From an uncultured Myxococcales bacterium (lineage in GTDB: Bacteria > Myxococcota_A > UBA9042), in contig CAIMLR010000015.1 of assembly GCA_903842345.1 (NCBI GenBank), forward strand, positions 1-64,000: a stretch of DNA of 64,000 nt. Reading direction: 5' to 3'. The first letter of the stretch is position 1; every line of letters begins with the position of its first letter. Of the stretch, positions 1,567 to 51,574 are shown in pieces. The translations under genes and the position numbers were made by a program. Under the pieces are notes generated by a model, which was not told the origin of the DNA, made no database searches, and saw nothing but the letters and a program-made list of their open reading frames with translations.

Positions 1567-1588
1567 CCAAGAAGCAAGGTAGAACATC

Positions 1589-3118: not shown

Positions 3119-4899
3119 CGCCGCATGATCTGATTGCCGCATTCGATGACATGGCCGACGGACCTGATGGCGTGAAGCGTCTGAGGGAGCTTGTGCTGCA
3201 ATTGGCAGTGCGGGGCAAGCTTGTGCATCAAGATCCGGCGGATGAGCCTGCGGTGAAACTGCTGGATCGGATCGCCAAGGTGAAGTCTCAGCAGGTGAAG
3301 GAAGGCAAGGTTCGGGCCAACAAGCTGGAACTACATGTGAACCTTGCGAACGTGCCGTTTGAGATCCCTGACGGCTGGATCTGGACACGGGCAGCCGCCA
3401 TCGGCTGGGTGAATCCGCGAAATCAGGTCGCGGACAACGCCGACGTGGGCTTCGTTCCAATGCCGTTGATGCCAATCGATTACCGCGCATCCGTTCAATG
3501 GGAGACCCGCCGGTGGTCTGAGGTCAAGACCGGTTTCACGCATTTCGCCACCGGAGACGTTGCCGTGGCCAAGATCACTCCGTGCTTCCAGAACAGGAAG
3601 TCATGCGTAATGCAGGACTTGCCGAACGGATACGGTGCAGGAACCACAGAGCTTCAGATTCTTCGTCTGCTGCCGGGCACATTGGAGGCTCGGTACATGC
3701 TGGCATTCTTCAAGACACCCGACTTCATCAGCGGCGGCGTCGCAACCATGAGCGGCACAGCTGGCCAACAGCGGGTGTCCAACGACTACTTTGCCAATCG
3801 GCCAGTGCCATTGCCACCACTTGCCGAACAGCACCGTATCGTCGCCAAAGTCGACGAACTGATGGCCTTCTTGGACAAGCTGGAAGCCGCCAAGAACGCC
3901 CGTGACGCCACCCGGACTGCTCTGCGTGACGCTGCCCTTGCTGGGCTTCGAGATGCCGATGGCCATGACGACGTGGAAGTGGCTTGGGGACGGATTGCCG
4001 GGCAGATGGATGACCTGTTTGCGGAGCCGGGGGATGTCGGGCCACTGAGGCAGGCTGTGCTGCAATTGGCGGTGCGGGGGCGGTTGGTGCGGCAGGATCC
4101 GGGGGATGAGCCTGCGGGGAAGTTGTTGAGGCGACTTGCAGCCCACAAGGCCAAAGTCGGCAGAGCGACAAGGGCGTTCACGGGAACCGCCATCGAAGCC
4201 ACGCCAGCCGACGTTGCCGTTCCGGCGTCGTGGGCACACTGCGCGCTGGACGACATCATCGATCCACTGCGACCAATTTCATACGGAGTGCTGGTGCCCG
4301 GTGCTCATGAAAGTGAAGGCATTCCATTGGTTCGCGTGGCCGAGCTACATCCACGTCACCCGGTCTTCCAGCCCGAAAAGTCCATTTTGGCATCGGTGGC
4401 GGCTGACTACTTGCGGATTCGACTTCAAGGCGACGAACTGTTGCTCGGCGTCGTGGGTTCCATTGGCAAGGTTGGCGTCGCACACCCGAACTGGGCTGGA
4501 GCCGTGATTGCCCGTGCTGTTGCCAGAATAGCCGTTGCCGACGGGATGCTTCGTGATTTCGTCTTGCTGGTGCTTCAGGCCCCCGTAACCCAAGCGTTCT
4601 TTCACGGATCCACACGCACGCTGGCCCAGCCGACGCTGAATGTGTCGTTGATCCGGCAGTTACCCGTTTCAATTCCTCCCCTTGCCGAACAGCACCGTAT
4701 CGTCGCCAAGGTCGATGAACTGATGGACCTGCTGGACAAGCTGGAAGCACGGTTGCGGGAAGCCAAGGGCTTGCAGGGGGCGTTTGCGGCGGCGGCGGTG
4801 CATCATTTGGACGTGGACGTAGCGGCAGATCTGCTGACCGCATCTCCGGCCAACGACGGCGTGGATTTCCAGCAGAGGCAACCGATCGTGTTCGTTTGA
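3115..4899 (+). CDS. hsdS: Type I specificity subunit HsdS
   Basis: 594 residues with two target-recognition domains (about 100-230 and 400-530). Each is followed by a conserved helical spacer containing the same string, PLAEQHRIVAKVDELM, at about 240 and about 520. This twofold repeat is the hallmark of HsdS, whose halves each read one half of a bipartite DNA target. The N-terminal segment LRELVLQLAVRGKLV is also repeated in the middle as LRQAVLQLAVRGRLV, so both half-subunits are complete. The start overlaps the hsdM stop. The protein is intact and should direct methylation, but the target sequence cannot be predicted here. Confidence 0.95.
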   Translation: MTPHDLIAAFDDMADGPDGVKRLRELVLQLAVRGKLVHQDPADEPAVKLLDRIAKVKSQQVKEGKVRANKLELHVNLANVPFEIPDGWIWTRAAAIGWVNPRNQVADNADVGFVPMPLMPIDYRASVQWETRRWSEVKTGFTHFATGDVAVAKITPCFQNRKSCVMQDLPNGYGAGTTELQILRLLPGTLEARYMLAFFKTPDFISGGVATMSGTAGQQRVSNDYFANRPVPLPPLAEQHRIVAKVDELMAFLDKLEAAKNARDATRTALRDAALAGLRDADGHDDVEVAWGRIAGQMDDLFAEPGDVGPLRQAVLQLAVRGRLVRQDPGDEPAGKLLRRLAAHKAKVGRATRAFTGTAIEATPADVAVPASWAHCALDDIIDPLRPISYGVLVPGAHESEGIPLVRVAELHPRHPVFQPEKSILASVAADYLRIRLQGDELLLGVVGSIGKVGVAHPNWAGAVIARAVARIAVADGMLRDFVLLVLQAPVTQAFFHGSTRTLAQPTLNVSLIRQLPVSIPPLAEQHRIVAKVDELMDLLDKLEARLREAKGLQGAFAAAAVHHLDVDVAADLLTASPANDGVDFQQRQPIVFV

Positions 4900-6371: not shown

Positions 6372-7379
6372 CTACGCAGTCGCTGCTCTCCGTGCCGCAA
6401 TCTTGCGAAGCCTTTCACGTAGCCCTCGCTCGCGTTGAAGCATGGAGATGATTGCGGAGCGTTCTGCTGGATGCAGGGCAGCCCTCGTCTGCCTCGGGAA
6501 CTGCTTTTGAAGGCTATCAAGGGCCGCCGGGTCTACGCCCTTCAGATAGGCGAGTAAACCGGCTAGCCGGGACATGTCGAGTTTGGTCAACTTGTCAATC
6601 TGGTGGAGCATGGCACGAATCTTACGTCGCAGTTCACGTGGAGCAGCCACTTTCTCGTCGTCGGTTAGCACGAGGCCTGTGATTCGCCGCTGCGCTCCTT
6701 TGTGCATCAAGACAGTTTTGTCCTTGTTCAGCTTCAAACCAAATGGAAACGCAAGCCCAGTCAAGTACTTGGCGACCTCCCCTTCAAGACCCTGAAGGTC
6801 GTTCGCTGAGCCACTTGAGAAGAACATGTCGTCGGCATAGCGGCTGTATGCCAACTCGCGATGCTCGGCCATGACGGAAAGCATCAGGTCCAGCTCAATG
6901 CACAGCGCATTTGAGAGCGACGGCGAGGTTGGGGCACCGATGGTCAACCGACCTCTGCGACAGACCAGTTTTGTGAAGATCTTCAAGTCGTTCGAAGTCC
7001 ACTCCGCAGGAAAGACACTCCGCCGACGCCTCCAATACACGTTGATGTCTTTCGCCGTGATACTGGGAAAAAACTGCTTCACGTCGAGCCGAACTACGAA
7101 CGCATTCTTCCGATGTGGCGAAGCCGTGTCCAACGTCCCTTTCTTCGCCACATAGGCAGTTGCACAGGCGTGGACTGGAAGCCGGGCCACAATGGTCCGC
7201 AACAGCCACCGCTGCAGGAGCCTCAGTTCTGGGGCTGGAATGAAGATCGGCCTAGTTCCACCGTCACGCTTCTTGATCTCTGCCTTTCGGTACAGGTGCG
7301 AAGCTTGCGCGATGATGGACTCAAGGAAAGCCACGTCCAGCGACAGGGATTCAGCCATTTGCGCCAAGAGCACGGTCAT
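6372..7379 (-). CDS. Retron reverse transcriptase (St85/Ec86-like)
   Basis: 335-residue RT that copies the msd part of the retron RNA into msDNA. All core motifs are visible: RPIFIPAPELRLLQRWLL (RT2), an AxxH element (TASPH) matching the retron NAxxH motif, LDVKQFFPSI (RT3, first catalytic Asp), GAPTSPSLSNA (RT4), YSRYADDM (RT5, catalytic YADD at about 181-184), LNKDKT (RT6) and ITGLVL, which matches the retron VTG motif. I chose ATG 7379 because it overlaps the effector stop as ATGA; a longer start at 7406 is possible. Size is typical for retron RTs. Order and family fit type II-A retrons: RNA, then NDT effector, then RT. Confidence 0.93.
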   Translation of the reverse strand: MTVLLAQMAESLSLDVAFLESIIAQASHLYRKAEIKKRDGGTRPIFIPAPELRLLQRWLLRTIVARLPVHACATAYVAKKGTLDTASPHRKNAFVVRLDVKQFFPSITAKDINVYWRRRRSVFPAEWTSNDLKIFTKLVCRRGRLTIGAPTSPSLSNALCIELDLMLSVMAEHRELAYSRYADDMFFSSGSANDLQGLEGEVAKYLTGLAFPFGLKLNKDKTVLMHKGAQRRITGLVLTDDEKVAAPRELRRKIRAMLHQIDKLTKLDMSRLAGLLAYLKGVDPAALDSLQKQFPRQTRAALHPAERSAIISMLQRERGLRERLRKIAARRAATA

Positions 7380-8278
7380 TTCAACTCCGCGATGCGTTCT
7401 CGCCAAGTGTCTGAGTTCGTAGCGATGACGGCATCCAGTACCCGTGCCCGCTCACGGTTGGCATTCACGCCGATTTTGGTGCCTAGCGCCCGGCCACTGG
7501 CACGATTTCGTGAGTACTTCGCTTCCCCGCCAGTTCCACGACAAGTGGTCAGTTCCAATGACGTCGCCAGTCCCAGCAGGCTGTTGAGCTGCCAATCGTC
7601 AACATCGGCAAGGATCTTCGAAATGACGTAGGAGAAGTCAGAGGCGTCGGCTGGGCCGATCATGGAGGCGATATGGCACAGGAGATACATCAGGTGTTTC
7701 TCACGTGCTCGGGGCGTCCGTGTCACTGTCTGTCTCGATCTCATTCGGAATGGCGGCTTGAGCAGCTCAAGTCGCTGATCTAATTCAGCAACAACTTCGA
7801 ACATCGGCTCAAATTGCACAAAGGCGGGCTTGAAACGCGAATCAGTAGTCAGCCAGCGCAATGGACCGGTGTTGATAAATGACTCATCGTCCTTGTACTC
7901 TTCATCAACTACGGCAAAGATTTTGCCGCGAAGGTCATCATTCAGAGCGAAGGCCCCGAGTTCTGCGGCGGTACCGACGCTCTCCACGATGATGATCACC
8001 ATGTCGGCGATCTTGGCGAGGTAGCTCTCCATCTGCAAGGCAGAGAGCGGCAGGTGCCGAACATGGTTCCAAGCGTCCTCGGCATAGAAGACATGGACAT
8101 TGCTGTGGGTTTTGCGAATGTGCTTCTGAAGGTAGTCGCGTCTGCGACTGTGGAATTTGCCGCAGATAAACACGAAAGGTTCAAGAAAATAGTCCGAATT
8201 GACCTCGGCGCTGCTGAGCCGTGCTGCCAGCCGGTCCAGTGTCTTTCTGCTCTTCGCGTTGGCTATGAGGTGTGACAC
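7376..8278 (-). CDS. Retron effector, nucleoside deoxyribosyltransferase-like with C-terminal domain
   Basis: 300 residues. The N-terminal half matches the retron St85/Ec86 effector family: FVFICGKF, then LLxLE-like ALQMESYLAKIADMVIIIVE, then ESVGTAAELGAF (about 99-110), the NDT-type catalytic Glu region, then DEEYKDDESFINTGPLRW. The C-terminal part (about 190-300) corresponds to the DNA-binding-like domain of this family. Known relatives are toxins held inactive by RT plus msDNA and released on phage attack, acting as N-glycosidases on nucleotides or NAD-type substrates. The start codon is GTG just after the a2 repeat of the retron RNA. It overlaps the RT by ATGA. Intact by inspection. Confidence 0.88.
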   Translation of the reverse strand: MSHLIANAKSRKTLDRLAARLSSAEVNSDYFLEPFVFICGKFHSRRRDYLQKHIRKTHSNVHVFYAEDAWNHVRHLPLSALQMESYLAKIADMVIIIVESVGTAAELGAFALNDDLRGKIFAVVDEEYKDDESFINTGPLRWLTTDSRFKPAFVQFEPMFEVVAELDQRLELLKPPFRMRSRQTVTRTPRAREKHLMYLLCHIASMIGPADASDFSYVISKILADVDDWQLNSLLGLATSLELTTCRGTGGEAKYSRNRASGRALGTKIGVNANRERARVLDAVIATNSDTWRERIAELK

Positions 8279-13143: not shown

Positions 13144-13983
13144 ATGGACACGCAACCTCAGCAGCAAGGCCAAACGAACGATTGGGACGCCGACTTCTTC
13201 GTTGGCGGCATCCGCCCCCAACTCACTGACGGCGGCGTCCTCGGGTCCACGGGCACGGACCCAATGTCGATCGGGCTGCCGGTCCAAGCTGCGCCGGTAA
13301 CTAAGGCGGATTTGGCCGCAGCCGTTGCAGATCTGAAGGCGACGATGGCGGCACTGTCTTGGCCGCAACAAGCAGGATCGATTCAGATGGCAGGCCCGCC
13401 GTTGCCACCGACAGGTGCGACGGTGATCCAGCACGAGTCGTTGTCCAGCAAGACATTGGCCGTCGCCCACGGCTACGACCAGTGGCTGACGACTGAAGAG
13501 GCTGCCAAGTACCTGCGGTTCGGCAATTCCAGCACGATCCGCAGCCTCATCAACAAAAAGTTGCTCCGCGCCGACGGCAAGCGGGGCAAGAGCTACCTGT
13601 TCCGCGTTGCGACTTTGGATGCGTATGCGACACGGCAGACAGCGGTCATGGAAGGGCCAGATGCGACACGAAAATTTCAAGAAGACCAAGCTTCCCGGAC
13701 TGTTCAAGGCAACCGACGGCTCGGGCCGATGGTACGTGCGGGCCGCGATCCGGGTGGATGGGCAGATCGTCGCGATCAAGAAGTTGCTGCCCGCCGTGAA
13801 TCCGACCACGGGCAGGCCCTACGACGACGTGGAAGCGTTCATCGAATTCAAGGCGCTGAAGGAACAGGCCAAGGCCCGAACGCAGACACCGCCCCCGACC
13901 CCTACGCCGCACCCGCAGGATACGTGCCAGACCGTGCAGCAGTACTGCGTGCGTTGGCTGAAGGTCAGGGCCGCTCGACTTAG
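13144..13983 (+). CDS. Excisionase-like DNA-binding protein
   Basis: ATG 13144 with GGAGG upstream. After an Ala/Pro-rich N-terminus comes a winged-helix excisionase-type domain (about 115-160): DQWLTTEEAAKYLRF, then SSTIRSLINKKLLRADGKRG, then YLFRVATLDAYA. This matches the helix-turn-helix 17/Xis architecture that helps integrases direct excision. The reading frame continues open to 13983, overlapping the integrase start by 323 bp in another frame. The Arg/Gly-rich tail after about residue 175 looks like non-coding translation of GC-rich DNA, so the functional part probably ends near 13670. Partner of the adjacent integrase. Confidence 0.7.
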   Translation: MDTQPQQQGQTNDWDADFFVGGIRPQLTDGGVLGSTGTDPMSIGLPVQAAPVTKADLAAAVADLKATMAALSWPQQAGSIQMAGPPLPPTGATVIQHESLSSKTLAVAHGYDQWLTTEEAAKYLRFGNSSTIRSLINKKLLRADGKRGKSYLFRVATLDAYATRQTAVMEGPDATRKFQEDQASRTVQGNRRLGPMVRAGRDPGGWADRRDQEVAARRESDHGQALRRRGSVHRIQGAEGTGQGPNADTAPDPYAAPAGYVPDRAAVLRALAEGQGRST

Positions 13984-14959
13984 CCCCAGCACCGCTGAGG
14001 GCTACGCAGAGGCCATCAACGACCGCATCCTGCCTCGGATGGGCTGGATGAAATGCACCGACGTGACGCGGCAAGCCGTGGAGGCTTGGGTCGTCTGGAT
14101 CGAAGCACAGGTCCAGCCTGCACAGCGCACCATGATGAAGCGGGGCATGGCGGAGCCGGTCACATACGACAATCCACATGCCGGTGAACCGTACTGCGAA
14201 GCGACTATGCGGAAGTGGTGGCGGTGCTTGAAGACGATTCTGGGCGACATGGCAGCTGATTTCGGCGACATGAAGAACCCTGTCTTGCGGATTCGGCACC
14301 CACAACGTCCAGAACTGGCCAGCCGCCGCGAGCAACGCACGCTGGACGCAGAGGTCACTGGCAGAATCTTGGCCGCGACGCAATTCCGGTTCCCGCAGCA
14401 CTTCGCCTGCATCGCGGTCATGGCCATGACGGGGATGCGTGCTGGCGAAGTCTTTGCATTGCAATGGGATGTAGTGGATTTTGCGGCAGGGACGATTACC
14501 GTGAAGCGGGCAGTCAGCAAGGGCACGTTGCGGCAGCGGACAAAGACTGGGTCGCCGCGCACCGTGCCGATGCACCCTGAACTGGCTGACATCCTTGAAG
14601 CCCATCAGCAGGCCCAGACCGGTAAGGAGCATCTGGGGCTTTCTTCCGGGCTGCTGTTTCCATCGGAAGACGGCAAGGTCCGGATCCCGTCCAGCTTGCG
14701 CAAGGTGTGGCCGAAGGTGGCAGAACTGGTCAACACGGACATCCGCGTTGCCAACCGTGTTCTGCGGCGGTCCATGAACACTCGGCTGGTTGAAGCCGGT
14801 GTCGATCGCACCGTCATCCGCGCCATCATGGGCCACATGGGCGAGGCCATGACGCAGCTCTACACGGGCGTGGACATGAACGCCAAGATGAACGCTTTCG
14901 CCCGCATCCAGCCGACTCTGGCCGCTGCGGGCGTAGAACCGCCCCCGACCATTCACTGA
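13661..14959 (+). CDS. int: Tyrosine recombinase (integrase of the left island)
   Basis: 432 residues from ATG 13661 (MRHENFKKTK). It has an N-terminal arm-binding region, a SAM-like core-binding domain and a catalytic domain. Visible catalytic parts: Arg in GMRAGEVFALQW, Lys in TKTGSPRTVPMHPEL, Arg in the box-II segment RVLRRSMNT, His in IMGHMG, and Tyr in LYTGVD. The usual His of the HxLR box is Arg here. It lies 60 bp from the partial tRNA-Arg att copy and points at it. It closely resembles the second integrase (50261-51442), especially MTGMRAGE and DVVDF-AGTITVKR. Confidence 0.93.
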   Translation: MRHENFKKTKLPGLFKATDGSGRWYVRAAIRVDGQIVAIKKLLPAVNPTTGRPYDDVEAFIEFKALKEQAKARTQTPPPTPTPHPQDTCQTVQQYCVRWLKVRAARLSPSTAEGYAEAINDRILPRMGWMKCTDVTRQAVEAWVVWIEAQVQPAQRTMMKRGMAEPVTYDNPHAGEPYCEATMRKWWRCLKTILGDMAADFGDMKNPVLRIRHPQRPELASRREQRTLDAEVTGRILAATQFRFPQHFACIAVMAMTGMRAGEVFALQWDVVDFAAGTITVKRAVSKGTLRQRTKTGSPRTVPMHPELADILEAHQQAQTGKEHLGLSSGLLFPSEDGKVRIPSSLRKVWPKVAELVNTDIRVANRVLRRSMNTRLVEAGVDRTVIRAIMGHMGEAMTQLYTGVDMNAKMNAFARIQPTLAAAGVEPPPTIH

Positions 14960-15021: not shown

Positions 15022-15066
15022 GGCGCGCCCAACAGGATTCGAACCTGTGACCGTCGGCTTAGAAGT
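15022..15066 (-). other. Attachment site: partial tRNA-Arg 3' half
   Basis: On the minus strand this reproduces the 3' half of tRNA-Arg(UCU), from the anticodon loop (CTTCTAAG) through the T-arm to the acceptor end (GGGCGCGCC). It aligns to 51499-51543 and the match stops just past the anticodon loop. The T-stem differs from the intact gene but with compensating changes (ACAGG/CCTGT versus AAGGG/CCCTT). It is the junction of the left island and the prophage. Confidence 0.85.
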
Positions 15067-17465: not shown

Positions 17466-17556
17466 GTAAACCACAAGTTTACTCTGGCCCAGTTGCAGTA
17501 AACCTGACGTATACCTGCATAAACCTGACGTATACCCTGGTAAACCACAGGTTTAT
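17466..17556. promoter_or_regulatory. Operator or iteron-like array
   Basis: Two palindromes, GTAAAC CACAA GTTTAC (17466-17482) and GTAAAC CACAG GTTTAT (17540-17556), flank two identical 17-mers TAAACCTGACGTATACC (17499-17515, 17520-17536) spaced by 21 bp. All four share the TAAACC half-site. The stretch is AT-rich for this DNA and lies upstream of the 17742 gene. The 302-bp gap 17439-17741 holds nothing else that I see. Confidence 0.7.
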
Positions 17557-17741
17557 GCAGGTAAAGCTGTGGTGGTACATGAGTCATGTGCTGTCAAAGA
17601 AGCTTCCAAAGAGCTGTCAAGTTGGCTCTCTCTCCCAAAGCTGCCGCGCTGGGCGCTTCGCGCCGCCGCGCTACAGCCGTGCAGGGACACAGCCGGGACT
17701 GCTTCCGGGCTCATGGGACCGTGACGGTCGGGAGGTGGGCT

Positions 17742-18572
17742 GTGGCTAACACCTACGAACGGTTCCAGATTGGGACCAAAATGTTGCAGCTTGTCCCCAA
17801 CATGCCCAGTCGAATCCTGTTGTTCTACGAAGGTTGGGGTTGGCGGAGGTCTTGGTCAGCGGAGGAAGTTTGTCTGGCCTGTGGCTACGTGGACGGGGAC
17901 GGGAAGCCCCAAGCTCACAACCTGAGGGTCATGCGGGCAAAGCTCATCAAGGACGGGTTGTTGACGAAGGTTCAGGACGGTCCGCACTACTACTTTGTAC
18001 CTGCTGAGGTCGGCCTGCCCCAGGTCAGCTTGGACGTCCTGAGCAGCAAGGGGCAGAACCAGTATTGCAACCGTGGTGAGAAGCCCTTGGACTACGAGGG
18101 CTTGCTTGGCAGGTTGCCGGAGGTCAGGGTTGGCAGCTATGAAGGGAGCTGGGTCGACCTGTTGCCGGGCTTGCTTGATTGGGCTGACGCCAACGTGTGG
18201 AAATTTTGGACCGAAGTGTTCCCGTCGGCGTTGAAGTCCAAAGGTCACCCGTTGGCCGCTGAGCCCGACCAAGCCTTTGTGGCCGAGTGGAGCCTTACGT
18301 TCGCGGAAGCCCTGCTTGACCGTGACCGTCACCTCCCGTTGCCAGCCCAACCGGACCGTTGGCTCATAAGTTCGATGGGTTGGACGCAGGACCCCGGCAA
18401 CGTCAGCCGTGTCCCGAACAAGTCTGAGGTCAAGGCCAGGTTGGCGGACAAGGAGCAGGACGGTTGCCAGACCTTGAGGCTGATGGCGCAGGCTTGGCTG
18501 GAGAGTCGACCTGCCCACCAAGTTTGGGGCCACCGCCCATCCGCCCGTGCGAAGGGAGCCAACCATGAGTAA
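17742..18572 (+). CDS. Winged-helix-like protein (possible repressor or replication initiator)
   Basis: 276 residues from GTG 17742, with GGAGG six bases upstream; the open frame extends further up, but that part would run through the operator array leader and looks non-coding. Residues about 15-90 (SRILLFYEGWGWRRSWSAEE, LRVMRAKLIKDGLL, YYFVPAEVG) look like a winged-helix DNA-binding fold. The rest is a helical domain with several Trp. Located directly after the repeat array, it probably binds it, either to repress early genes or to start replication. No close family is recognised, and the C-terminal part gives no catalytic motif. Confidence 0.7.
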   Translation: MANTYERFQIGTKMLQLVPNMPSRILLFYEGWGWRRSWSAEEVCLACGYVDGDGKPQAHNLRVMRAKLIKDGLLTKVQDGPHYYFVPAEVGLPQVSLDVLSSKGQNQYCNRGEKPLDYEGLLGRLPEVRVGSYEGSWVDLLPGLLDWADANVWKFWTEVFPSALKSKGHPLAAEPDQAFVAEWSLTFAEALLDRDRHLPLPAQPDRWLISSMGWTQDPGNVSRVPNKSEVKARLADKEQDGCQTLRLMAQAWLESRPAHQVWGHRPSARAKGANHE

Positions 18573-19799: not shown

Positions 19800-20348
19800 A
19801 TGACTACTTCTTCGCCGCCCCCAGCGGGGCGTGGCGCCCTGCCTGTCGTTCGGCCGCGCCCCCCTTCCGTACCGCTCCCGAGCGCCCGACCTCCAACCCC
19901 AGGACCGGCCACCGCTGCGGAATTGGCGGAGCTTGCAAAAAAGCTGCACTCGAAGACCGACACTCTGAATGAAAGCCTGCTTGAAGCCGAATCGGCCATT
20001 CATGACCTGAAATTGGGCGTGACGGCGTTTGTGCGCCTTCAAACTTGGGAGGATCCGCAGTCAACCATTTGCACGTACACCGACCTTCGCTTCGGCAAGT
20101 ATGACGGCAAATGGCAACTGCTCATTGACACCGGGGAGGAGGGTGACGACGACTGCCGGACGTGCCACGTCACCAAGGCCAGCCGAGAAGTGCGGGTCGT
20201 TGCGGCCCAGAGCCTCCAGAAGCTTCTGGACGAGATGAGGACTGCGATCCGGGTGGAAAGCGCCGAGGTCGACAATGCAGTTTTCGACGCCCGAGCTTTC
20301 GCCCACGCCCTGCGCGGGAAGGAGGCCGACGATGGGATCCCTTTCTAG
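19800..20348 (+). CDS. Hypothetical prophage protein
   Basis: 182 residues, ATG with GAGAGGA ribosome site. Pro-rich N-terminus (about 1-40), a helical segment (LAELAKKLHSKTDTLNESLL), then a domain with strands (TICTYTDLRFGKYDGKWQLL), an acidic GEEGDDDCRTCHV motif with two Cys, and a C-terminal helix. Not recognised. Its 3' end overlaps a small membrane protein gene by 17 bp, implying coupled expression. Confidence 0.7.
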   Translation: MTTSSPPPAGRGALPVVRPRPPSVPLPSARPPTPGPATAAELAELAKKLHSKTDTLNESLLEAESAIHDLKLGVTAFVRLQTWEDPQSTICTYTDLRFGKYDGKWQLLIDTGEEGDDDCRTCHVTKASREVRVVAAQSLQKLLDEMRTAIRVESAEVDNAVFDARAFAHALRGKEADDGIPF

Positions 20349-20487
20349 GCTGCTCGACAGGGTACCGGCCCACAAATTGCTTATCGTCCTCGCCGCCGTT
20401 GGGGGAATCGCCGTGTACATGGTCAATCACGGGTACGCGCTGGATTTCGCTCTCATCAAGGTCACGCCGCCAGCCGCCCACCAATAG
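20332..20487 (+). CDS. Small single-span membrane protein
   Basis: 51 residues beginning MGSLSRLLDRV, with a strong GGAAGGAGG ribosome site 6 bases before the ATG. One hydrophobic helix (KLLIVLAAVGGIAVYMV, about 15-31) and a short polar tail. It overlaps the previous gene by 17 bp. Possible superinfection-exclusion, holin-like or envelope role, but there is no positive evidence for any of them. Confidence 0.65.
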   Translation: MGSLSRLLDRVPAHKLLIVLAAVGGIAVYMVNHGYALDFALIKVTPPAAHQ

Positions 20488-20513
20488 TGTCCGTCACGGC
20501 TTCCGCCCGGGCG

Positions 20514-21425
20514 CTACCACGACGGCGGTTCAACGACTGCGGGACCGGCTTTTCGTCGTTTCAGCGATTCTTGGTGCTCGTGCGAGTCGAGGATGAATTC
20601 ACACAGGACGAACGCGGCGTTCACCGCGAGCTTCGCATGGTGCCGCGCGAGCCGGCGGTACGGGCCGGCATGGCGGTCGCCACTCTTGTGTGCGATTTCG
20701 GCCAAGGCGGAGACCTGGGTTTTCAGCCCTTGCAGGATGCCTTTGAGGTGGCTTTCCAAGTTTTCGCCCTTGGGGTTGAGGTTCAGCGGCTCGACAAGGA
20801 GTTTGTAGAGCTCCCTGATGTCACCTTCCGACTCGTTGAACGGCACCTCCAGTCTCCGCAGCATCGCCTTGAAGAACGCCTCGATTAGTGTGTACGCGTT
20901 CGTGACCGCACCCGAATGGTCTCCACTCTCAATCTTCAGTCGTGCTTTCGCCAACTGTTCGGTTATGGACTCCTCCGTCAGTTTGACCAGAGACGGCACG
21001 TGGACGGTTCGGCCACCGAATGCCCGGACGATGAAGAACGGGTCAGTCACACTGTCATTGCCAGAGTAGAACAGGTGCCTCTCTTCACGGACAACCTCAA
21101 ACCCGTCTCGCTTGAGCGTCCTGTTGAGGTGTGCGGCGGCGTGTTCGGGGTTGATCCCTTCTTCCCCCCACAGGTCGTTCAGGCACGCGCAGATTATCTT
21201 CCCCATCTGCTCCGTCCCGTTGAATTTTTCCAGCTTCTCCTTCGCGTAGTTGAGCCGCGACGGAGCGCCGGAACCCCCGTGAATGTCGCGCTCGCCAAAC
21301 TGACGGAAGAACTCGGTTATCCCGCCCAGAGTCCGCCGCTTAGATCTCCAGTCCTGCGCCTCCACGGGCTCGTTGCCAAGGAGAATTTCCGCAATCACAT
21401 TCAGGGTCTTGGGGGCTAACTGCAT
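20514..21425 (-). CDS. Abortive infection family protein
   Basis: 303 residues with GAGGAGAAG ribosome site. The C-terminal half (about 160-285) matches the Abi_C type domain: ITEQLAKARLKIESGDHSGA, YTLIEAFFKAMLRR, then LLVEPLNLNP, then LAEIAHKSGDRHA followed by HHAKLAVNAAFVL. This is a HEPN-like helical domain, and RHxGPYRRLARHH may be the RNase-type motif. The N-terminal part (about 25-135) is another helical domain likely to sense or bind. Encoded against the direction of the phage genes, as lysogenic-conversion defence genes usually are. It probably protects the lysogen from other phages. Confidence 0.75.
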   Translation of the reverse strand: MQLAPKTLNVIAEILLGNEPVEAQDWRSKRRTLGGITEFFRQFGERDIHGGSGAPSRLNYAKEKLEKFNGTEQMGKIICACLNDLWGEEGINPEHAAAHLNRTLKRDGFEVVREERHLFYSGNDSVTDPFFIVRAFGGRTVHVPSLVKLTEESITEQLAKARLKIESGDHSGAVTNAYTLIEAFFKAMLRRLEVPFNESEGDIRELYKLLVEPLNLNPKGENLESHLKGILQGLKTQVSALAEIAHKSGDRHAGPYRRLARHHAKLAVNAAFVLCEFILDSHEHQESLKRRKAGPAVVEPPSW

Positions 21426-21591
21426 CGCTTCTCCTCGCCGTCATGAACGGAGCGGCCGACGAAGCGTGCACGGCGGTCGGGCGGTTGTCTACGGGAGGAA
21501 ACGGAGCAAGTCCTTGTCGCGGTGGCGTGACAGGCTGTGAATAACTTAGCAGGTCTGTTGATAAATCGCCAGCCCCTACAGTGGGTTGGCG

Positions 21592-21948
21592 TCACATGTC
21601 CTCGATCACGATCGTCTCCGTGATCACGAAATCCGTCCCGCAATTCGTGCAATGCAGCTTCGTGGCCGGATACCGGACAATTTGGTGCAGCGTCGGCTCG
21701 CCCTCCCGGCACGGCAGGGCCTCAAGCTTGGTGATCTCCGCCGTCACGCGAGGGTCGTTGGTCCGCAACTTGGTCTTCTCGGCAGGGAAGAAGCCATGGG
21801 CAGCCATGTACGCGCGAATATCGTCCGTCGTGATGTCTGGCCATGGCTGGGCGCCAACGCCGGGCCTGGGTAGCTCGACGGCGTAGTACGGTCCGACAGG
21901 CTGCTTGCGGCCCACGTCAACCTGGCGCTCTCCGTTCTGGTAAATCAT
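21592..21948 (-). CDS. Hypothetical protein with C-terminal CxxC
   Basis: 118 residues; ATG overlaps the upstream stop (ATGA at 21945-21948). Contains DITTDDIRAYMAAHGFFPAE and a late LHCTNCGTDFV motif that could be half a zinc site. Not recognised. In the minus-strand cargo operon with the membrane protein and nuclease genes upstream. Confidence 0.65.
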   Translation of the reverse strand: MIYQNGERQVDVGRKQPVGPYYAVELPRPGVGAQPWPDITTDDIRAYMAAHGFFPAEKTKLRTNDPRVTAEITKLEALPCREGEPTLHQIVRYPATKLHCTNCGTDFVITETIVIEDM

Positions 21949-22232
21949 CGGGGCTTGTCGTTCTCAAAGCTGCGGTAGATGCACGTGATGATGACGCCCA
22001 CGACGATCAGGGGGCTGCCGCGTATAAACGCGTCCAGGTAGCCGACCGCTGTTTGCGTCTCAGGCCCTTGGTCTTGCATCATGAACCAGAACCCGACGGC
22101 CCAGAACATCGGCAACGCCGAAATTGTCAACGTCGTCTTGACCTTCTCACGCCGCCAGTAGCGTTCAAGTTCCTCGCGCTGTTCCTCAGCACGGAGCCAC
22201 GCGGCGTCTTTGGGGTCGAGTTCGTACGGCAT
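21945..22232 (-). CDS. Small membrane protein
   Basis: 95 residues. An acidic and basic N-terminal helix (AAWLRAEEQREELERYWRRE) is followed by two hydrophobic spans (about 35-52, ISALPMFWAVGFWFMM, and about 68-86, GSPLIVVGVIITCIY). It is coupled to the CxxC protein by a 4-bp overlap. Possible envelope-level exclusion factor in the cargo block; no family recognised. Confidence 0.65.
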   Translation of the reverse strand: MPYELDPKDAAWLRAEEQREELERYWRREKVKTTLTISALPMFWAVGFWFMMQDQGPETQTAVGYLDAFIRGSPLIVVGVIITCIYRSFENDKPR

Positions 22233-22281
22233 GACGTGCCTCGCGGGCCGTCGTTGGGCCAGCCTAGCCTGTGACCGCGCC

Positions 22282-23361
22282 CTACTTGCCTGCCGGGTAG
22301 GTGGTGGCGGTCGCCTTCAGGCGCTCACCGGCCGCGTAGATGTCGTCCAGACTGCCCAGCACGACCTTTTCTTCCTCTTTCTTGTCGTTGAACAGAATCA
22401 GGATTTTCTTGTCGTCCGTGAACTTGAACCGGCACAGGGCTTTGCGCCGATTGTCGTCAATCAGGATGCTGCAATGGCCGACGGCGTCACGCATGAAAAT
22501 GCGCTTCACGTCGCAGACCTCGCGGACGATGGACTTGACGATGTGGTAGGCCTCGATTTCCTCAGCGGTCGTGACAATGCCCTCGTCCTTGACAGGCACG
22601 GCAGCAGCCGGGACCGCCGCCGCAGGCGTGGCCTGGGCAACCGTCGCCCCGTCACCCAAGGCTTGGCGCAGGCGCTCATTGATGGCGTCCGTGACAAACT
22701 GGCTGAGCGCCCGCTTGGTCATCGCGTTGAAATTCTCCATCATCCGCTTGGTCTTGACGCCCGTGTAGACGCGCCCGACCAAGAACTTGACGAAATCCTC
22801 CGCCGGGTCGGCGAACTGTTCAGCGAGGACGCGCTTGAGGTCCCGCGTGTAGCGCAGGTCAGCGGCGGCGGTCGCCAGTTCTTCCGGGTTGAAGCCCGAG
22901 CGGGAGAACCGCTTGACCTCGTCAACGGCAGCCTCGTTGATATCCAGCAGGTTGAGTTCCAAGAAGGGCTTCAGGTCCATCTTGTTGGGCTCATCCAGAT
23001 CCGTGAAGAACCGGTAGACGATGCCGTTGGTCAGAATGCCGACGCGCGCCGACGTGGTGTGGAAGTAGCGCAGGAGTTGGTTGAAGTGTGCGTCGTCCAA
23101 ACTGGCGCCAGCGTGTTTGCACTCAAACAGCATGATGGGCTTGCCGTCACGCAGAATCGCGTAGTCGACCTTCTCGCCTTTCTTGAGGCCCAGGTCAGCC
23201 GTGAATTCCGGCACAACCTCGGACGGGTCGAACACGTTGTAGCCCAGCGCATTGATGAACGGCATCACGAACGCGTTCTTGGTCGCCTCCTCGGTCTGGA
23301 CGTACTCAAGCTGCTTCGGGACACGCGCGGCCATCTGACGAATTTGGTCAATGAAATCCAT
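22282..23361 (-). CDS. Type I restriction enzyme R-like nuclease domain protein
   Basis: 359 residues from ATG 23361 (GAGGG upstream); the extra 12 codons further up are less likely. The N-terminal domain (about 20-160) matches HsdR_N: EEATKNAFVMPFINALGYNV, then VDYAILRDGKPIMLFECKHA with the D and ECK of a PD-(D/E)xK nuclease, then GILTNGIVYRF. The C-terminal part (about 250-355) is a separate small domain after an Ala/Pro/Val linker. No helicase is present. Such stand-alone proteins are common in prophages; the role could be defence against other phages or DNA processing. Confidence 0.8.
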   Translation of the reverse strand: MDFIDQIRQMAARVPKQLEYVQTEEATKNAFVMPFINALGYNVFDPSEVVPEFTADLGLKKGEKVDYAILRDGKPIMLFECKHAGASLDDAHFNQLLRYFHTTSARVGILTNGIVYRFFTDLDEPNKMDLKPFLELNLLDINEAAVDEVKRFSRSGFNPEELATAAADLRYTRDLKRVLAEQFADPAEDFVKFLVGRVYTGVKTKRMMENFNAMTKRALSQFVTDAINERLRQALGDGATVAQATPAAAVPAAAVPVKDEGIVTTAEEIEAYHIVKSIVREVCDVKRIFMRDAVGHCSILIDDNRRKALCRFKFTDDKKILILFNDKKEEEKVVLGSLDDIYAAGERLKATATTYPAGK

Positions 23362-23565
23362 TACTGCCCTCAACGGTGACGTGCTGACTCGGTGCACCGC
23401 GCATTGGCCTCCCCACGTGCGGCGTGCGTAGCGTCCGCCTGTGCCACAAGCGTGTCAAGGCCACCTGAGAAATCTGCGCCAACCGATGAAATAAGTTCGT
23501 TTTTCTGACTTTTCGCCCGCCCTATGCAGTAGCCCGGCACGCACGCCGGTACAGCGAGGACGGAA

Positions 23566-24051
23566 ATGAACAAGACACAACACGACAAAGCAGAGGCGAG
23601 GCGGCAATACGTGATGGCGCGCGTCCAAATCGAGTGCAACGGCTGTTGGACGTGGACCGGTGGACGCGCCGGTGACGGTTACGGTGACGCCAACTTCCAA
23701 GGCAAACGGCAAGGAGCGCACCGGTTCAGCTACGAGGCATGGAACGGCCCGTTGGCCCCGGGGATGCACGCCGGTCACAAGCACGGGTGCGCAACTCCAA
23801 CCTGTGTAAATCCCGAGCATTTGGAACCCCAAAGCCCAAGCGCCAACTCGTTGGAGCAGGTGTCCCGCCGACACGAACGCAGGGTTTGGACGCCACAGGA
23901 CCGCGCCCAAGCCAAGGCCGACGTGCTGTACGGACCCGGCGGCTACCACGCCAAGGCCGTCCGTAACGGGATGAGCAGGACAATGGCCCGGTTGATCGCG
24001 AAGGGCGTTCTTTGGGTCGACGTCCCCGCGACGTCACAGGAGGCCGCATGA
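23566..24051 (+). CDS. HNH endonuclease
   Basis: 161 residues, ATG with GAGG upstream. Matches HNH_3-type nucleases: CNGCWTWTG with zinc-ligand Cys, then GAHRFSYEAWNGPL, then HAGHKHGCATPTCVNPEHL, which carries the catalytic His, Cys ligands and the NPEHL helix. A helix-turn-helix-like C-terminus follows. Phages carry these as homing nucleases or as partners of terminase near the packaging genes. It sits about 1.9 kb before the small terminase candidate. It starts the rightward block 23566-25943, each gene overlapping or abutting the next. Confidence 0.85.
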   Translation: MNKTQHDKAEARRQYVMARVQIECNGCWTWTGGRAGDGYGDANFQGKRQGAHRFSYEAWNGPLAPGMHAGHKHGCATPTCVNPEHLEPQSPSANSLEQVSRRHERRVWTPQDRAQAKADVLYGPGGYHAKAVRNGMSRTMARLIAKGVLWVDVPATSQEAA

Positions 24052-24242
24052 ACCCGCTCGACAAAGACCGGCTGCACCAAGCTATCCGGACAATCAACGA
24101 ATTCACGGCCCAAGGCACGGAGTTCAGGATCGCGCGCAACAAGCTGCGCATGTGCCTGTGCCAGTACCGGGACGGCGAGTTGTCCTCCGTCATCGAGATC
24201 TGCCGGTTTCCGAACACGGAGGCGACAGATGGCCAAGCGTAA
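24048..24242 (+). CDS. Small hypothetical protein
   Basis: 64 residues; ATG overlaps the HNH stop (ATGA). Helical N-terminus DKDRLHQAIRTINEF, then FRIARNKLRMCLCQYRDGEL. Overlaps the next gene by 14 bp. Not recognised. Confidence 0.6.
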   Translation: MNPLDKDRLHQAIRTINEFTAQGTEFRIARNKLRMCLCQYRDGELSSVIEICRFPNTEATDGQA

Positions 24243-25944: not shown

Positions 25945-27348
25945 GTGCCGAGACTTGTGCCGTTTCAGCAACCAGCGAGACGCCCTGCGGTGGCTGCGAC
26001 AGCCGAGCTTGACCTTGATGCAGCTTGGAAGTGCTACGATAAGCAGGCCCGGTTTATCGCTAACTCCTCGATGTTTAACCTTTTTGTAGGCGGCGTGGGC
26101 AGCGGCAAAAGTTTTGCCCTTTGCTGCTGGGCCATACGTCGTGCATTGGCCAACCCCAACGCTGTTGGCGCCCTGCTGGGACGGACGAGCATTGACCTAC
26201 AAACCGTACTGCTGCCGTGTCTTTTCGACCGGCTACAGGACTGTCAGGACCAAACCGGCGTTTGCCTCATCAGGGCCTATGACAAGGGCAACGCCAAGCT
26301 CACGCTCATCAACGGCGCGGTCATTTTCTTCAGGCCGTACAACCGGATCGCCAAGCTCCGTGGTCTGACTCTGACGTGGGCCTGCGCGGACGAGATCGCC
26401 TTCGCGGAAGCGCCTGAAGATGAAGTGTTTTCTGTCTTGGCGGGCCGGCTGCGTGGTAAGGGGCCGGTCCCCGGCCTGGCCTTCGCCACCAGCCCCAACG
26501 GCGCCAAGGGCGTGGTCGGCATGTTTGTCGCGGCACAGCGGCACTACGCTCTGGCCAAGCAATCCGGGGACCTTGAGGCCACGCGGCGGTGGCGCCAATG
26601 GCACGTCGTAACGGCCAAATCCTTTGACAACCCGTACTTGCCTGATCACTTCTTCGACAGCCTGCGGTCAATGAGCAAGCGGCGTTTCGAGCAGGAGTGC
26701 AACGGCCGGGTGCTGGCTCCCCTCAACACGGTCTTGACGTTGGAGCCCAGGCACTTCGTCGATTGGGATTGGCGGCAGCACAAGAATCTCCCATGGATCC
26801 TTGGGGTTGACTGGGGCGGGCAGTCTGGACACGTGGCGATCATGGTCCAACTGGACCGCACCACCGATCCAAAGAACCCGCGCTACGTTGTGGCGGACGA
26901 GCTGATCGGCGATGATTTGCCGCGCGCGAAATTCCAAAAACTCTTGTCTGACTGGGTTTCCAGTAAGGGACAGGACCCCATCTTCGCTGGTGTGGACCGT
27001 GCCTGTCCCGGTGAGAACCAAATCCTCCAAACCCGGCTCCGCAACACCAGTATCCGTTGGCTTCATAGTCGCGACCAGCAGCGGGTCACCTCTGGCGTGG
27101 AGCACCTGAGGGATCTTTTGGATGTGATGACCGGCGAGCCAAAACTCGTGTTTTCTCGGTCACTTGCGACCGTGGCGACGAGTGTGACGAGCCCGATCGT
27201 GCACGCCCTCCGCAACTATTCGTTCCACCTTGACAGCAACGGCCAGCCGACCGGAATCCCGAACAAGAGCGGAGGGTTCGACCACGCCCCTGACGCCCTT
27301 CGGTATGCCGTATTTGGTGCCAAGGAATTTCCACCCGCCAGGCTGTAG
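25945..27348 (+). CDS. terL: Terminase large subunit
   Basis: 467 residues, GTG start one base after the previous stop. ATPase motor: Walker A GGVGSGKS (about 49-56), Walker B TWACADEI (about 144-151), coupling motif FATSPNG (about 180-186). Nuclease domain: GVDWGG (first Asp), AGVDRA (second Asp) and DHAPDALRY (third Asp, near the C-terminus), the RNase-H-like set that cuts concatemers. All motifs are intact. It packages phage DNA into the prohead through the portal. Confidence 0.93.
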   Translation: MPRLVPFQQPARRPAVAATAELDLDAAWKCYDKQARFIANSSMFNLFVGGVGSGKSFALCCWAIRRALANPNAVGALLGRTSIDLQTVLLPCLFDRLQDCQDQTGVCLIRAYDKGNAKLTLINGAVIFFRPYNRIAKLRGLTLTWACADEIAFAEAPEDEVFSVLAGRLRGKGPVPGLAFATSPNGAKGVVGMFVAAQRHYALAKQSGDLEATRRWRQWHVVTAKSFDNPYLPDHFFDSLRSMSKRRFEQECNGRVLAPLNTVLTLEPRHFVDWDWRQHKNLPWILGVDWGGQSGHVAIMVQLDRTTDPKNPRYVVADELIGDDLPRAKFQKLLSDWVSSKGQDPIFAGVDRACPGENQILQTRLRNTSIRWLHSRDQQRVTSGVEHLRDLLDVMTGEPKLVFSRSLATVATSVTSPIVHALRNYSFHLDSNGQPTGIPNKSGGFDHAPDALRYAVFGAKEFPPARL

Positions 27349-27467: not shown

Positions 27468-27509
27468 TCTTGGGCTTCGCTGGGCCGCGTCGGCATCCGG
27501 CGTCCCGGA

Positions 27510-27521
27510 CGGTGGTTATCG
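27510..27521 (+). promoter_or_regulatory. CGGTGGTTATCG motif, copy 2
   Basis: 24 bp before the portal ATG. A CCCC/GGGG short inverted repeat follows at once. Confidence 0.65.
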
Positions 27522-27545
27522 CCGCCCCCACGTCAGGGGTGACCT

Positions 27546-33715: not shown

Positions 33716-34125
33716 TGCACGCCGCACAGATCTTACAACAGATCCAAGAAGTCTTGGAAGCGCTTGATCCCACTGATCAGGCGACCCCCGAGGACCGGTT
33801 TCACGGCAACGTCGGGGACCGCCCGGCCATGCCGGTGGACCGAATGTTCAGCGTGGGCGCCAGTTTGCCGGCCCGCGACCCCAACTTCATCGACCCCACT
33901 GAATACGTCATGACGGTGGTTATCGCGGTCGCATACATGAGCGGCCCCTCAGCTTTGGCCCGCTGCTTGGACGACGCCGAACAAGTCAACGAGGCCATCT
34001 GGGAGATGGCCGCTGACCTCGGAGTGACGATCGACCAGGTAGGGGAAGGCCAGATCCACGCGGGACCGGAACTTGAGACGTTTCAAGCGGTTCGGCAATT
34101 CCGGGTCCGCTACACACTGGGGTGA
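33715..34125 (+). CDS. Head-tail joining protein (putative)
   Basis: 136 residues; ATG overlaps the previous stop by one base. Sequence such as LARCLDDAEQVNEAIWEMA and the final FQAVRQFRVRYTLG resembles tail-completion proteins (gpU or SPP1 gp17 type), which close the tail end facing the head. Position before the tail tube gene agrees. It contains an internal CGGTGGTTATCG copy (33914-33925). Confidence 0.65.
   Translation: MHAAQILQQIQEVLEALDPTDQATPEDRFHGNVGDRPAMPVDRMFSVGASLPARDPNFIDPTEYVMTVVIAVAYMSGPSALARCLDDAEQVNEAIWEMAADLGVTIDQVGEGQIHAGPELETFQAVRQFRVRYTLG
33914..33925 (+). promoter_or_regulatory. CGGTGGTTATCG motif, internal copy
   Basis: Sixth copy of the 12-mer, this one inside the joining-protein gene, where it codes TVVIA. 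It may be chance or an internal signal for the tail tube gene. Confidence 0.35.
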
Positions 34126-44613: not shown

Positions 44614-44616
44614 CGA

Positions 44617-44628
44617 CGGTGGTTATCG
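44617..44628 (+). promoter_or_regulatory. CGGTGGTTATCG motif, copy 5
   Basis: 56 bp before the ATG at 44685; a GGTGC/GCACC inverted repeat follows. Confidence 0.65.
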
Positions 44629-44684
44629 GTGCGCCTGTTTGGCACCCGCGCGACGACTGACGGGGCCGAGCCACAGGAGCCCCG

Positions 44685-49965: not shown

Positions 49966-50553
49966 ATGTCCGGGATCTGGATCGCCCGAATGGAGACTGA
50001 CCCGAATCTGACGCTGGCGGCAGCGCACCTCGAACTGGCGGCGGCGTTGCGGGAGCACACGAGGGAACTGCGCCTCGACCGCTTGTCCCGCGAGACGTTC
50101 TTGTCGCTGGACGACGCCGCATTTTACGCACGGCTGACTGTGGAGGGCCTGACCAAGCGCGTCAAGCGCCACCAAATCACGCCGGTTCCGCACATGCACG
50201 GCCCGAACGGCCAGGCAGTTTTCAAACGCATCGATTTGCTGCTCACCAAGGAGACAAGGGATGGAAAAGTCAAAGAAGTTCCCGGGGGTCTTCCGGCTCC
50301 CGGACGGCCGCTGGAAGGTCAAGACCGCCGTGCGCGTGGCCGGGAAAATCCGGTTCAAGGAGAAGGTGTTGGAGGCGGGCGCGACGGAGGAGGACGCCGG
50401 AAAGCTGGCGATCGAGTTCAGGCAAGCGCTCGTGGCCGGGGAGCCGGTGACGCCGACCTCAGCCCAGCCGACCGCGACCGGCGAGACCGTCAGGACGTAC
50501 GCGAAAGCCTGGCTCGCGCTGCGCGGGCAGCGCATGAAACCGGCGGGCGTTGA
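49966..50553 (+). CDS. Excisionase-like protein of the prophage
   Basis: I prefer ATG 49966 (GGGGGAT 12 bases upstream); the upstream part of the frame contains A-runs and looks non-coding. ETFLSLDDAAFYARLTVEGL then TKRVKRHQITPVPHMHGP then AVFKRIDLLL is an HTH_17/excisionase-type domain. As in the left island, the frame stays open into the integrase gene (293 bp overlap, same relative frame), but the Arg/Gly-rich tail is probably not functional. Partner of the adjacent integrase. Confidence 0.6.
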   Translation: MSGIWIARMETDPNLTLAAAHLELAAALREHTRELRLDRLSRETFLSLDDAAFYARLTVEGLTKRVKRHQITPVPHMHGPNGQAVFKRIDLLLTKETRDGKVKEVPGGLPAPGRPLEGQDRRARGRENPVQGEGVGGGRDGGGRRKAGDRVQASARGRGAGDADLSPADRDRRDRQDVRESLARAARAAHETGGR

Positions 50554-51442
50554 GACGTACATCGCCTGTGTTTACGACCACATCGTGCCGGTCATCGGCG
50601 AACTCCGGTGCCGTGACGTGACGCGCCGGGAGGTCGAGACTTGGGTTGTGCACGCGGAGGCGGCGCTCAAGCCTGACGGCAAGCCCTACGCCCACGACAG
50701 CATGCGCCAATGGTGGCGCGTACTTCGCACGATGTTGCGCGACATGGCCGCTGACCACGACATCCCGGATCCGACGAGCCGCGTCCGCCCACCTGAACGC
50801 CCGCAGCAGGCACCGATCCGGGAACAGCGCACGTTGGATGCACAGCAGATCCGCGCCTTGCTCGTCGCGGCCCACCAGTACTGCCCGGATCGCGCCGCCG
50901 AGGTTGCCGTGATGGCGATGACCGGGATGCGGGCGGGCGAGTGCTACGCCTTGGCCTGGGACGTTGTGGACTTCAAGGCCGGGACCATTACGGTCAAGCG
51001 CTCGCTTTCGCGGGGGAAGTTGACGCAGACGACCAAGACCAAGGCTCAGCGCGTTGTGCCGATGCACCCGGAACTCGCCGCCTTGCTGCGCGACCAGCAG
51101 GAGCGCCGGCGGGAAGCCGCGCTCAAGGAGCCTGCCCTGAAAAAGTGGGACCACATGGTGTTCACGGCCCAAGGCGGCGGGCTCCGGGAACCGTCGAGCG
51201 CCACAAAGGTCTGGCGGCTGCTGCAGGAAGCGCTCGGCACGGACATCAAGGTCGGGCCGCAGGTTCTCCGCCGCTCCGTCAACACGCAGCTCGTGTTGGC
51301 CGGTGTCGACCGCATCACCACGCGCGCCATCATGGGCCACACCAGCGAGGAAATGACCGCGCGCTACAGCGGCATTTCCACCGACAAGAAGGCGGATGCT
51401 ATGCAGCGGCTGCACCCGTCCACGCCCATCGCGGAAGCGTAG
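50261..51442 (+). CDS. int: Tyrosine recombinase (prophage integrase)
   Basis: 393 residues. N-terminal arm-binding domain (FPGVFRLPDGRWKVKTAVRV), core-binding domain (TYAKAWLALRG onward) and catalytic domain: Arg in GMRAGECYALAW, Lys in TKTKAQRVVPMHPEL, box II QVLRRSVNT with Gln in place of the usual His, IMGHTS, and Tyr in RYSGIS. It is strongly similar to the island integrase (13661-14959) and shares the unusual box II. Adjacent to and pointing at tRNA-Arg(UCU), its attB. Mediates integration and excision of the prophage. Confidence 0.95.
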   Translation: MEKSKKFPGVFRLPDGRWKVKTAVRVAGKIRFKEKVLEAGATEEDAGKLAIEFRQALVAGEPVTPTSAQPTATGETVRTYAKAWLALRGQRMKPAGVETYIACVYDHIVPVIGELRCRDVTRREVETWVVHAEAALKPDGKPYAHDSMRQWWRVLRTMLRDMAADHDIPDPTSRVRPPERPQQAPIREQRTLDAQQIRALLVAAHQYCPDRAAEVAVMAMTGMRAGECYALAWDVVDFKAGTITVKRSLSRGKLTQTTKTKAQRVVPMHPELAALLRDQQERRREAALKEPALKKWDHMVFTAQGGGLREPSSATKVWRLLQEALGTDIKVGPQVLRRSVNTQLVLAGVDRITTRAIMGHTSEEMTARYSGISTDKKADAMQRLHPSTPIAEA

Positions 51443-51473: not shown

Positions 51474-51500
51474 ACGGCGGGCGGGCGGCGTGTAAGTAGG

Positions 51501-51574
51501 CGCGCCCAAAGGGGTTCGAACCCTTGACACCCGGCTTAGAAGGCCGGTGCTCTATCCACCTGAGCTATGGGCGC
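51501..51574 (-). tRNA. tRNA-Arg (UCU)
   Basis: 74 nt cloverleaf: acceptor GCGCCCA/TGGGCGC, D-arm GCTC/GAGC, anticodon arm CCGGC CTTCTAA GCCGG with anticodon TCT, T-arm AAGGG TTCGAAC CCCTT, discriminator G. CCA is not encoded. Its 3' half is the attachment site of the prophage; the overlapping copy at 15022-15066 is the other junction. Confidence 0.97.

Follow-up and report, generated by a model that had tools for sequence, protein, structure and literature searches.

A leftward four-gene prophage block in an uncultured Myxococcales bacterium brings together a stand-alone PHROG 4225 nuclease and an AbiJ-type HEPN protein

Background

The gene block described here comprises four minus-strand genes, designated A to D, within a prophage of an uncultured Myxococcales bacterium (assembly GCA_903842345.1, contig CAIMLR010000015.1, positions 1 to 64,000; this stretch of 64,000 nucleotides (nt), analysed as a whole, is referred to as the window). 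It is a new combination of known families, encoding a stand-alone HsdR_N-type nuclease (D) and an AbiJ-type HEPN protein (A) together with two orphans (B and C). In the available text of a survey of HEPN proteins the Rx4-6H motif is conserved in AbiJ, and solo AbiJ proteins occur with restriction-modification (R-M) systems (PMC3710099). Tha of Staphylococcus phage 80alpha is a prophage HEPN protein of 301 amino acids (aa) which protects lysogens and is switched off on induction, according to the accessible part of PMC11087260, from which the name of the two-gene HEPN-TM system is also taken. No function of the nuclease family PHROG 4225 was reported in the literature found, and the accessible portions of PMC3710099, PMC6755750, PMC5198162, PMC10219966, PMC11087260, PMC8713573 and PMC5064177 assign none to a solo HsdR_N protein. 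A solo HsdR_N-type gene is recorded in a phage-resistant Campylobacter strain, where the available text calls its role unclear (PMC8713573).

Gene D resembles PHROG 4225 in its full-length match, its catalytic residues and its solo architecture, and differs in having no repressor alongside in this prophage. It shares the N-terminal nuclease fold and the nuclease residues of EcoR124I HsdR, but is only 359 aa long with no helicase motor and has no HsdM or HsdS partner in the block. The C-terminal match of A to Pfam Abi_C and PADLOC AbiJ places it with AbiJ, from which it departs in lacking the canonical Rx4-6H arginine and in having an arginine directly before the histidine. Like Tha, as far as the accessible text goes (PMC11087260; locus L155), A is encoded by a prophage gene of about 300 aa opposite to the lytic genes and has a C-terminal HEPN domain. 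However the two have no sequence similarity (BLASTP best E 1.7, against Tha-1) and different weak HEPN-family Pfam matches, and Tha keeps an ArgX4His motif in that same text, which A does not. With regard to the small antisense inhibitor gene of Tha, candidate open reading frames (ORFs) antisense to A exist and rightward readthrough from 20487 is possible. A and C can be set beside the HEPN-TM system since they lie in one block, but B stands between them and C had no PADLOC match.

We read the block as prophage cargo consisting of two independent anti-phage genes and two orphan riders, in which D would be a lysogen-expressed solo nuclease and A an RNA-acting protein of the AbiJ type, and assign this reading a probability of about 0.5.

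Results

A stand-alone HsdR_N-type nuclease

The product of D matches PHROG 4225 ('endonuclease') end to end, with residues 1-354 aligned to profile positions 2-353 of 357, and also matches Pfam HSDR_N (Table 1). D66, E80, K82, Q95 and Y99 are invariant in all 31 aligned PHROG 4225 members, and we take these residues to be the motif set of HsdR (D/ExK/QxxxY). An earlier note on this DNA, made from the sequence alone, had described D as a stand-alone HsdR_N nuclease with an ECK motif, a description borne out by both family matches and by E80-C81-K82. Pfam found no helicase family in D, which thus lacks the superfamily 2 (SF2) motor of HsdR; no HsdM or HsdS gene accompanies it in the block, and the type I genes near the start of the window belong to another element. 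Solved structures searched by sequence gave nothing useful for D.

In the AlphaFold2 model of D (mean predicted local distance difference test score, pLDDT, 86.9; predicted template modelling score, pTM, 0.57) a helical connector joins the N-terminal nuclease domain to a C-terminal domain in which five strands are preceded and followed by one helix. Foldseek returned no match to the model at E ≤ 0.001, and fold matches were taken from VIA re-alignment in its place. The best matches of residues 1-168 were DrdV, HsdR and type IIG nucleases (Z 12.8 to 7.6), among them DrdV itself (Z 12.8), a Vibrio HsdR fragment (Z 11.5) and EcoR124I HsdR (Z 8.0), with unrelated mitoribosomal rows near Z 8. The predicted C-terminal part had ambiguous matches only, YjbR (Z 6.9) and the DNA-binding domain of MotA (Z 5.9) among them, and may contact DNA.

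Recurrence of PHROG 4225 genes in lysogeny modules

Relatives of D were identified by tblastn in 18 phage records (identity under 60 % and coverage of at least 80 % throughout), in 60 records of the plasmid collection (80 % coverage in 22), in 69 viral contigs and in 16 of 184 related genomes. Host names in the phage records include Pseudomonas, Klebsiella, Porphyromonas, Corynebacterium, Streptococcus, Enterococcus and Fusobacterium. Dereplication at 85 % D identity reduced 78 loci with an identifiable D to 37, one locus (L115) having been dropped as it had no usable D ORF. Taking the nearest same-strand gene as the upstream neighbour and counting Pfam matches per family, we found HTH_3 upstream of D in 13 of the 37 loci and Peptidase_M78 (ImmA/IrrE-like) in 12, the two sets being disjoint by eye only; among 37 random genes from the same loci the corresponding counts were 4 and 0. 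The median gap between D and its upstream gene was 43 nt, and 11 of the 51 first and second genes downstream belonged to the main integrase family.

A repressor or metalloprotease lies upstream on the D strand, with at most one gene between, in seven of nine annotated phage records. One of the nine has the neighbours of D labelled hypothetical, and the accessible text on that phage reports HTH regulators grouped with an ImmA/IrrE peptidase and a type I restriction enzyme (PMC10219966). A tenth phage record with D is unannotated. Genes expressed in lysogeny classically lie in such a place, behind the repressor and before the integrase. Because PHROG 4225 genes recur beside a repressor or ImmA-type peptidase and an integrase, their arrangement naturally suggests that the family would be expressed from the prophage in lysogeny. 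No repressor adjoins D in the window, and for this reason its own lysogenic expression would follow from its relatives only.

The same placement near integrase and repressor would also be expected if D were not a defence gene and worked instead on the phage's own or the host DNA, in excision, replication or host takeover. D does adjoin the integrase in several phages and PHROG files the family under DNA metabolism, yet in most loci D lies on the repressor strand and not among the replication genes, and on the chromosomes of E. coli and of relatives of this host it stands solo, which makes such a role unlikely. The E. coli relative, 48 % identical, lies alone between hicA and aldB in three of three records and was identified in 186 of 5426 genomes. 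No phage context was recognised for four D loci from relatives of this host.

Two further observations concern the neighbours of these genes. hicA or hicB lies next to the PHROG 4225 gene in E. coli chromosomes (L156, L157, L158) and in a Porphyromonas phage (L021). In one viral contig 15 nt separate a close relative of D (50 % identity) from the start of a gene for a 79-aa protein (L047:8976-9215; PHROG 12304, unknown) in which two membrane spans are predicted. The idea that D has a conserved membrane partner on its downstream side was rejected: hydropathy flagged downstream genes in a number of loci, but the proteins inspected by eye are unlike each other and unlike C. Lysogeny cargo often carries membrane proteins.

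An AbiJ-type protein with a shifted arginine

The C-terminal domain of A scores 50.8 bits against Abi_C, for a curated cut-off of 24, and is matched by the AbiJ model of PADLOC (Table 1). The HEPN histidine (H252) is retained, with Arg251 directly before it. A had been taken for a HEPN-like abortive infection protein, which agrees with these family matches and with His252 but has to be qualified by the missing canonical arginine. Solved structures searched by sequence gave only weak matches, chiefly to designed helical proteins, and a structure model of A built on two aligned sequences was of low quality (pLDDT 55.5) and was set aside.

To place this change we utilized a family of 20 distinct proteins, window A counted among them, from the 184 genomes, 10 of 26 plasmid records, the single phage record and one viral contig; identical copies were removed and a second Abi_C place in genome G081 (L141) was excluded. 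An arginine seven residues before the catalytic histidine, with none directly before it, is present in 16 of the 20. In the other four (window A, L130, L132 and L143) the first arginine is absent and an arginine directly precedes the histidine (Fisher p = 2e-4, without correction for relatedness). In a FastTree phylogeny window A groups with L132 (0.998), and L143 with L130 elsewhere (0.511). Since the four carriers fall in two places of the tree, the shift probably arose at least twice, although this is not firm. The active site of A would thereby be rearranged, and A would be a changed RNase or one with weakened catalysis.

The closest relative of A found is that of viral contig L132, with 44 % identity over residues 1-292. 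In that contig a SNF2 helicase, the AbiJ-like protein, an N6 methylase and a ResIII protein are encoded in a row (L132:2767-11040). It is an R-M operon with helicases and a methylase; none of these genes, nor D, is common to it and the block. R-M genes adjoin four of the 20 A relatives by annotation or Pfam (L143, L146, L148 and L132), and two more (L125 and L126) have R-M neighbours by reading of the sequence without a family scan.

Such neighbourhoods raise the possibility that A is a second-line guard in the manner of PrrC, kept silent by D, or by a type I system close by, until that partner is inhibited. Guard logic for HEPN proteins in R-M loci is proposed in the available text of PMC3710099, and A relatives occur in type I operons, two of these by our own reading of the sequence, and in the SNF2/Mod/Res operon; D has an HsdR nuclease domain and a type I system is present at 121-4899 in the neighbouring element. 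However A and D are found together nowhere else in the viral D loci and the 184 genomes, B, C and a gap of 166 nt separate them in the block, and the type I genes are part of a separate tandem element, so that we regard a guard role as improbable. We place at a similarly low level the proposal that most of the block is cargo that is neutral or in decay, A being an inactive HEPN protein retained for binding or not at all. The loss of the canonical arginine in A and the lack of relatives of B and C would fit decay, whereas the four open frames have a strong coding composition, D keeps every catalytic residue tested, and the arginine change in A is common to relatives and paired with a new arginine.

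Four genes on one strand, but not one system

The four minus-strand genes of the earlier note are present as ORFs and have the composition of real genes in this genome, with a G+C content of 0.75-0.83 at the third codon position and 0.37-0.44 at the second. They are flanked by rightward early genes ending at 20487 and a rightward HNH gene from 23566, and form the sole substantial leftward unit of the prophage, which the earlier note had called otherwise rightward; the composition filter also lets through a few small leftward ORFs of doubtful status. D starts at an ATG, with an alternative GTG start at 23397. The gap between D and C is 49 nt, C shares 4 nt with B, and 166 nt lie between B and A, which has AGGAG immediately 5′ of its start. 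The 4-nt overlap together with the 49-nt gap makes a common D-C-B transcript plausible. No promoter-like sites were found in a scan of 20000-24200, and terminator-like sites were not in excess over shuffled sequences. Repeats within the block were limited to short chance-like pairs, and NCBIfam had no significant match for A, B, C or D.

Table 1 Coordinates of the block genes and prophage features in the window
Feature	Position	Strand	Basis
Gene A, AbiJ-type HEPN protein, 303 aa	20514..21425	-	Pfam Abi_C E 1.8e-13, PADLOC AbiJ E 3e-20; motif alignment
Gene B, orphan, 118 aa, one CxxC pair near the C terminus	21592..21948	-	ORF and composition
Gene C, orphan, 95 aa, one clear and one weak membrane span	21945..22232	-	ORF, composition, hydropathy
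Gene D, stand-alone HsdR_N-type PD-(D/E)xK nuclease, PHROG 4225, with helical connector and small C-terminal alpha/beta domain	22282..23361	-	PHROG 4225 E 1.8e-120, PF04313 E 5.7e-16
attL, 44-nt remnant of the 3′ part of tRNA-Arg; left prophage end	15022..15065	+	82 % match to 51499-51542; sequence read
tRNA-Arg(TCT), attR and host target; right prophage end	51499..51574	-	ARAGORN, Rfam
Prophage tyrosine integrase, adjoining attR	50261..51442	+	Pfam Phage_integrase E 3.3e-22; PHROG integrase
Terminase	25945-27348		PHROG 2, E 9.6e-33
Second integrase, in a different element left of the prophage, next to a tRNA-Arg remnant	13607-14959		

B was correctly noted as a CxxC protein in that it has a single pair (C100/C103), with one further cysteine (C80), but it had no significant zinc-ribbon match in Pfam. 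C had been called a two-span membrane protein; its span at 68-86 is clear (mean hydropathy 1.91) and that at 34-52 is weak (1.47). No credible relatives of B or C were found in the 183 other genomes, the viral contigs and the phage records, a search that left aside plasmids and, for C, genome contigs, and part of which needs short exact peptide patterns, such that distant relatives could be missed. The sole genome-contig match of B is a chance one, antisense inside an ORF of 729 aa, and apart from it no relative of B or C was present in any fetched locus; every D locus inspected outside the window lacks both. B and C may be fast-evolving or genuinely new.

A lack of co-occurrence elsewhere had been named beforehand as a result that would refute a multi-gene exclusion system joining membrane sensing to a nuclease, and the genes do not co-occur in the other genomes searched. 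A is present in none of the 69 viral D loci. In the 184 genomes D is found in 16 and A in seven, with both only in the genome of the window; the overlap expected by chance is about 0.6, and this non-overlap alone is a weak argument. Combined with the solo occurrence of D it disfavours a fixed partnership of A and D. A single exclusion system of A to D, in which C would sense at the membrane, B would serve as adaptor and A and D would act on RNA and DNA respectively, is therefore very improbable despite the tight D-C-B spacing with its 4-nt overlap and the single strand opposed to the rest of the prophage, as no collection searched showed the four together and relatives of D live without these partners. 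What stands of the original proposal is anti-phage cargo with an Abi protein and an HsdR_N nuclease, which is supported by the families and by the lysogeny-module placement of D relatives.

The prophage and other features of the window

The prophage is 36.5 kb in length, bounded by attL and by attR in the tRNA-Arg gene. Three genomes of the same genus match the window only from about 51484-51499 rightwards and not on the prophage side. The two integrases are 74 % alike over 111 nt (14759-14869 and 51263-51373), and this likeness, together with the position of the second integrase next to a tRNA-Arg remnant, suggests that two elements integrated in tandem at one tRNA-Arg. No CI-like repressor was recognised among the prophage genes scanned with Pfam and PHROG profiles (15100-51500). 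A second prophage of the same genome (C36) has the terminase region in common (terminase 64 %, plus neighbouring genes) with no block gene matched, and the block therefore lies in a variable region. For an empty-site comparison the prophages other than C36 are on contigs too short or too distant.

Left of the prophage we identified a candidate type II-A retron, with a reverse transcriptase (6372-8278, minus strand; PADLOC RT_II-A E 8e-84) beside an NDT_II-A match (E 2e-45), and type I R-M genes on the plus strand (121-4899), namely the C-terminal part of HsdR near the window start, HsdM and HsdS. A 21-nt sequence beginning GACGGTGGTTATCG is present in three copies (27508-27528, 33912-33932 and 44615-44635), two of them just before structural-region genes, and is possibly a shared regulatory site. 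Two head-to-tail 21-nt copies, 81 % alike, at 17499-17540 lie just before the gene at 17586-18572 and could be iterons.

Discussion

For the activity, targets and timing of expression of the block proteins we infer the following course. D would be made from the lysogen by the temperate phage, and its N-terminal PD-(D/E)xK domain would cut incoming or superinfecting phage DNA. Recognition or dimer contacts would come from the small C-terminal domain, and neither from HsdS nor from a motor. What D targets is probably a property of DNA that is incoming or replicating and not a host-modified site, and for that reason D would need no methylase. By analogy with other prophage HEPN defences, A would act on RNA or translation once infection is sensed, and with Tha as the model A and D would protect the lysogen in two separate ways, which B and C may modulate unless they are neutral. 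As the block opposes the rightward lytic genes, and the convergent ends of the two are 26 nt apart, readthrough in the lytic cycle could quiet it.

A number of findings weigh against the cargo reading. In A the arginine of the canonical Rx6H motif, the residue normally required for HEPN catalysis, is replaced by Ala245, and no Rx4-6H motif is present. No PADLOC model is dedicated to D, and the one that matches it best is for a type I methyltransferase (E 4e-4). The C-terminal fold of D is ambiguous, with all matches below Z 8 (YjbR 6.9; MotA, frataxin and CapZ about 5.7-6.2). In the window D has no adjacent repressor and starts its own unit 204 nt from the divergent HNH gene, and in the Porphyromonas phage (L021) it follows hicAB and not a repressor. 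Finally, relatives of D occur outside prophages, in E. coli and in relatives of this host, and its role need not be tied to lysogeny.

A wider proposal can be put forward tentatively. PHROG 4225 may be a modification-free and motor-free restriction nuclease, expressed with the repressor by temperate phages of several phyla and bringing its own C-terminal targeting to bear on superinfecting DNA, and A may represent a branch of AbiJ in which the HEPN arginine has moved beside the histidine with function kept; that both parts should hold together is possible but doubtful.

Conclusions

The role of PHROG 4225 and the arginine shift in A are the most interesting leads from this block. Phage lysogeny modules are a recurrent site for a family that usually carries only the label 'type I restriction endonuclease'. 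If it is true that PHROG 4225 restricts superinfecting phages without a methylase, the question becomes how self is spared, which would be approachable in E. coli through the relative of D that is 48 % identical. The shift of the HEPN arginine would in turn offer a simple mutational test of active-site tolerance.

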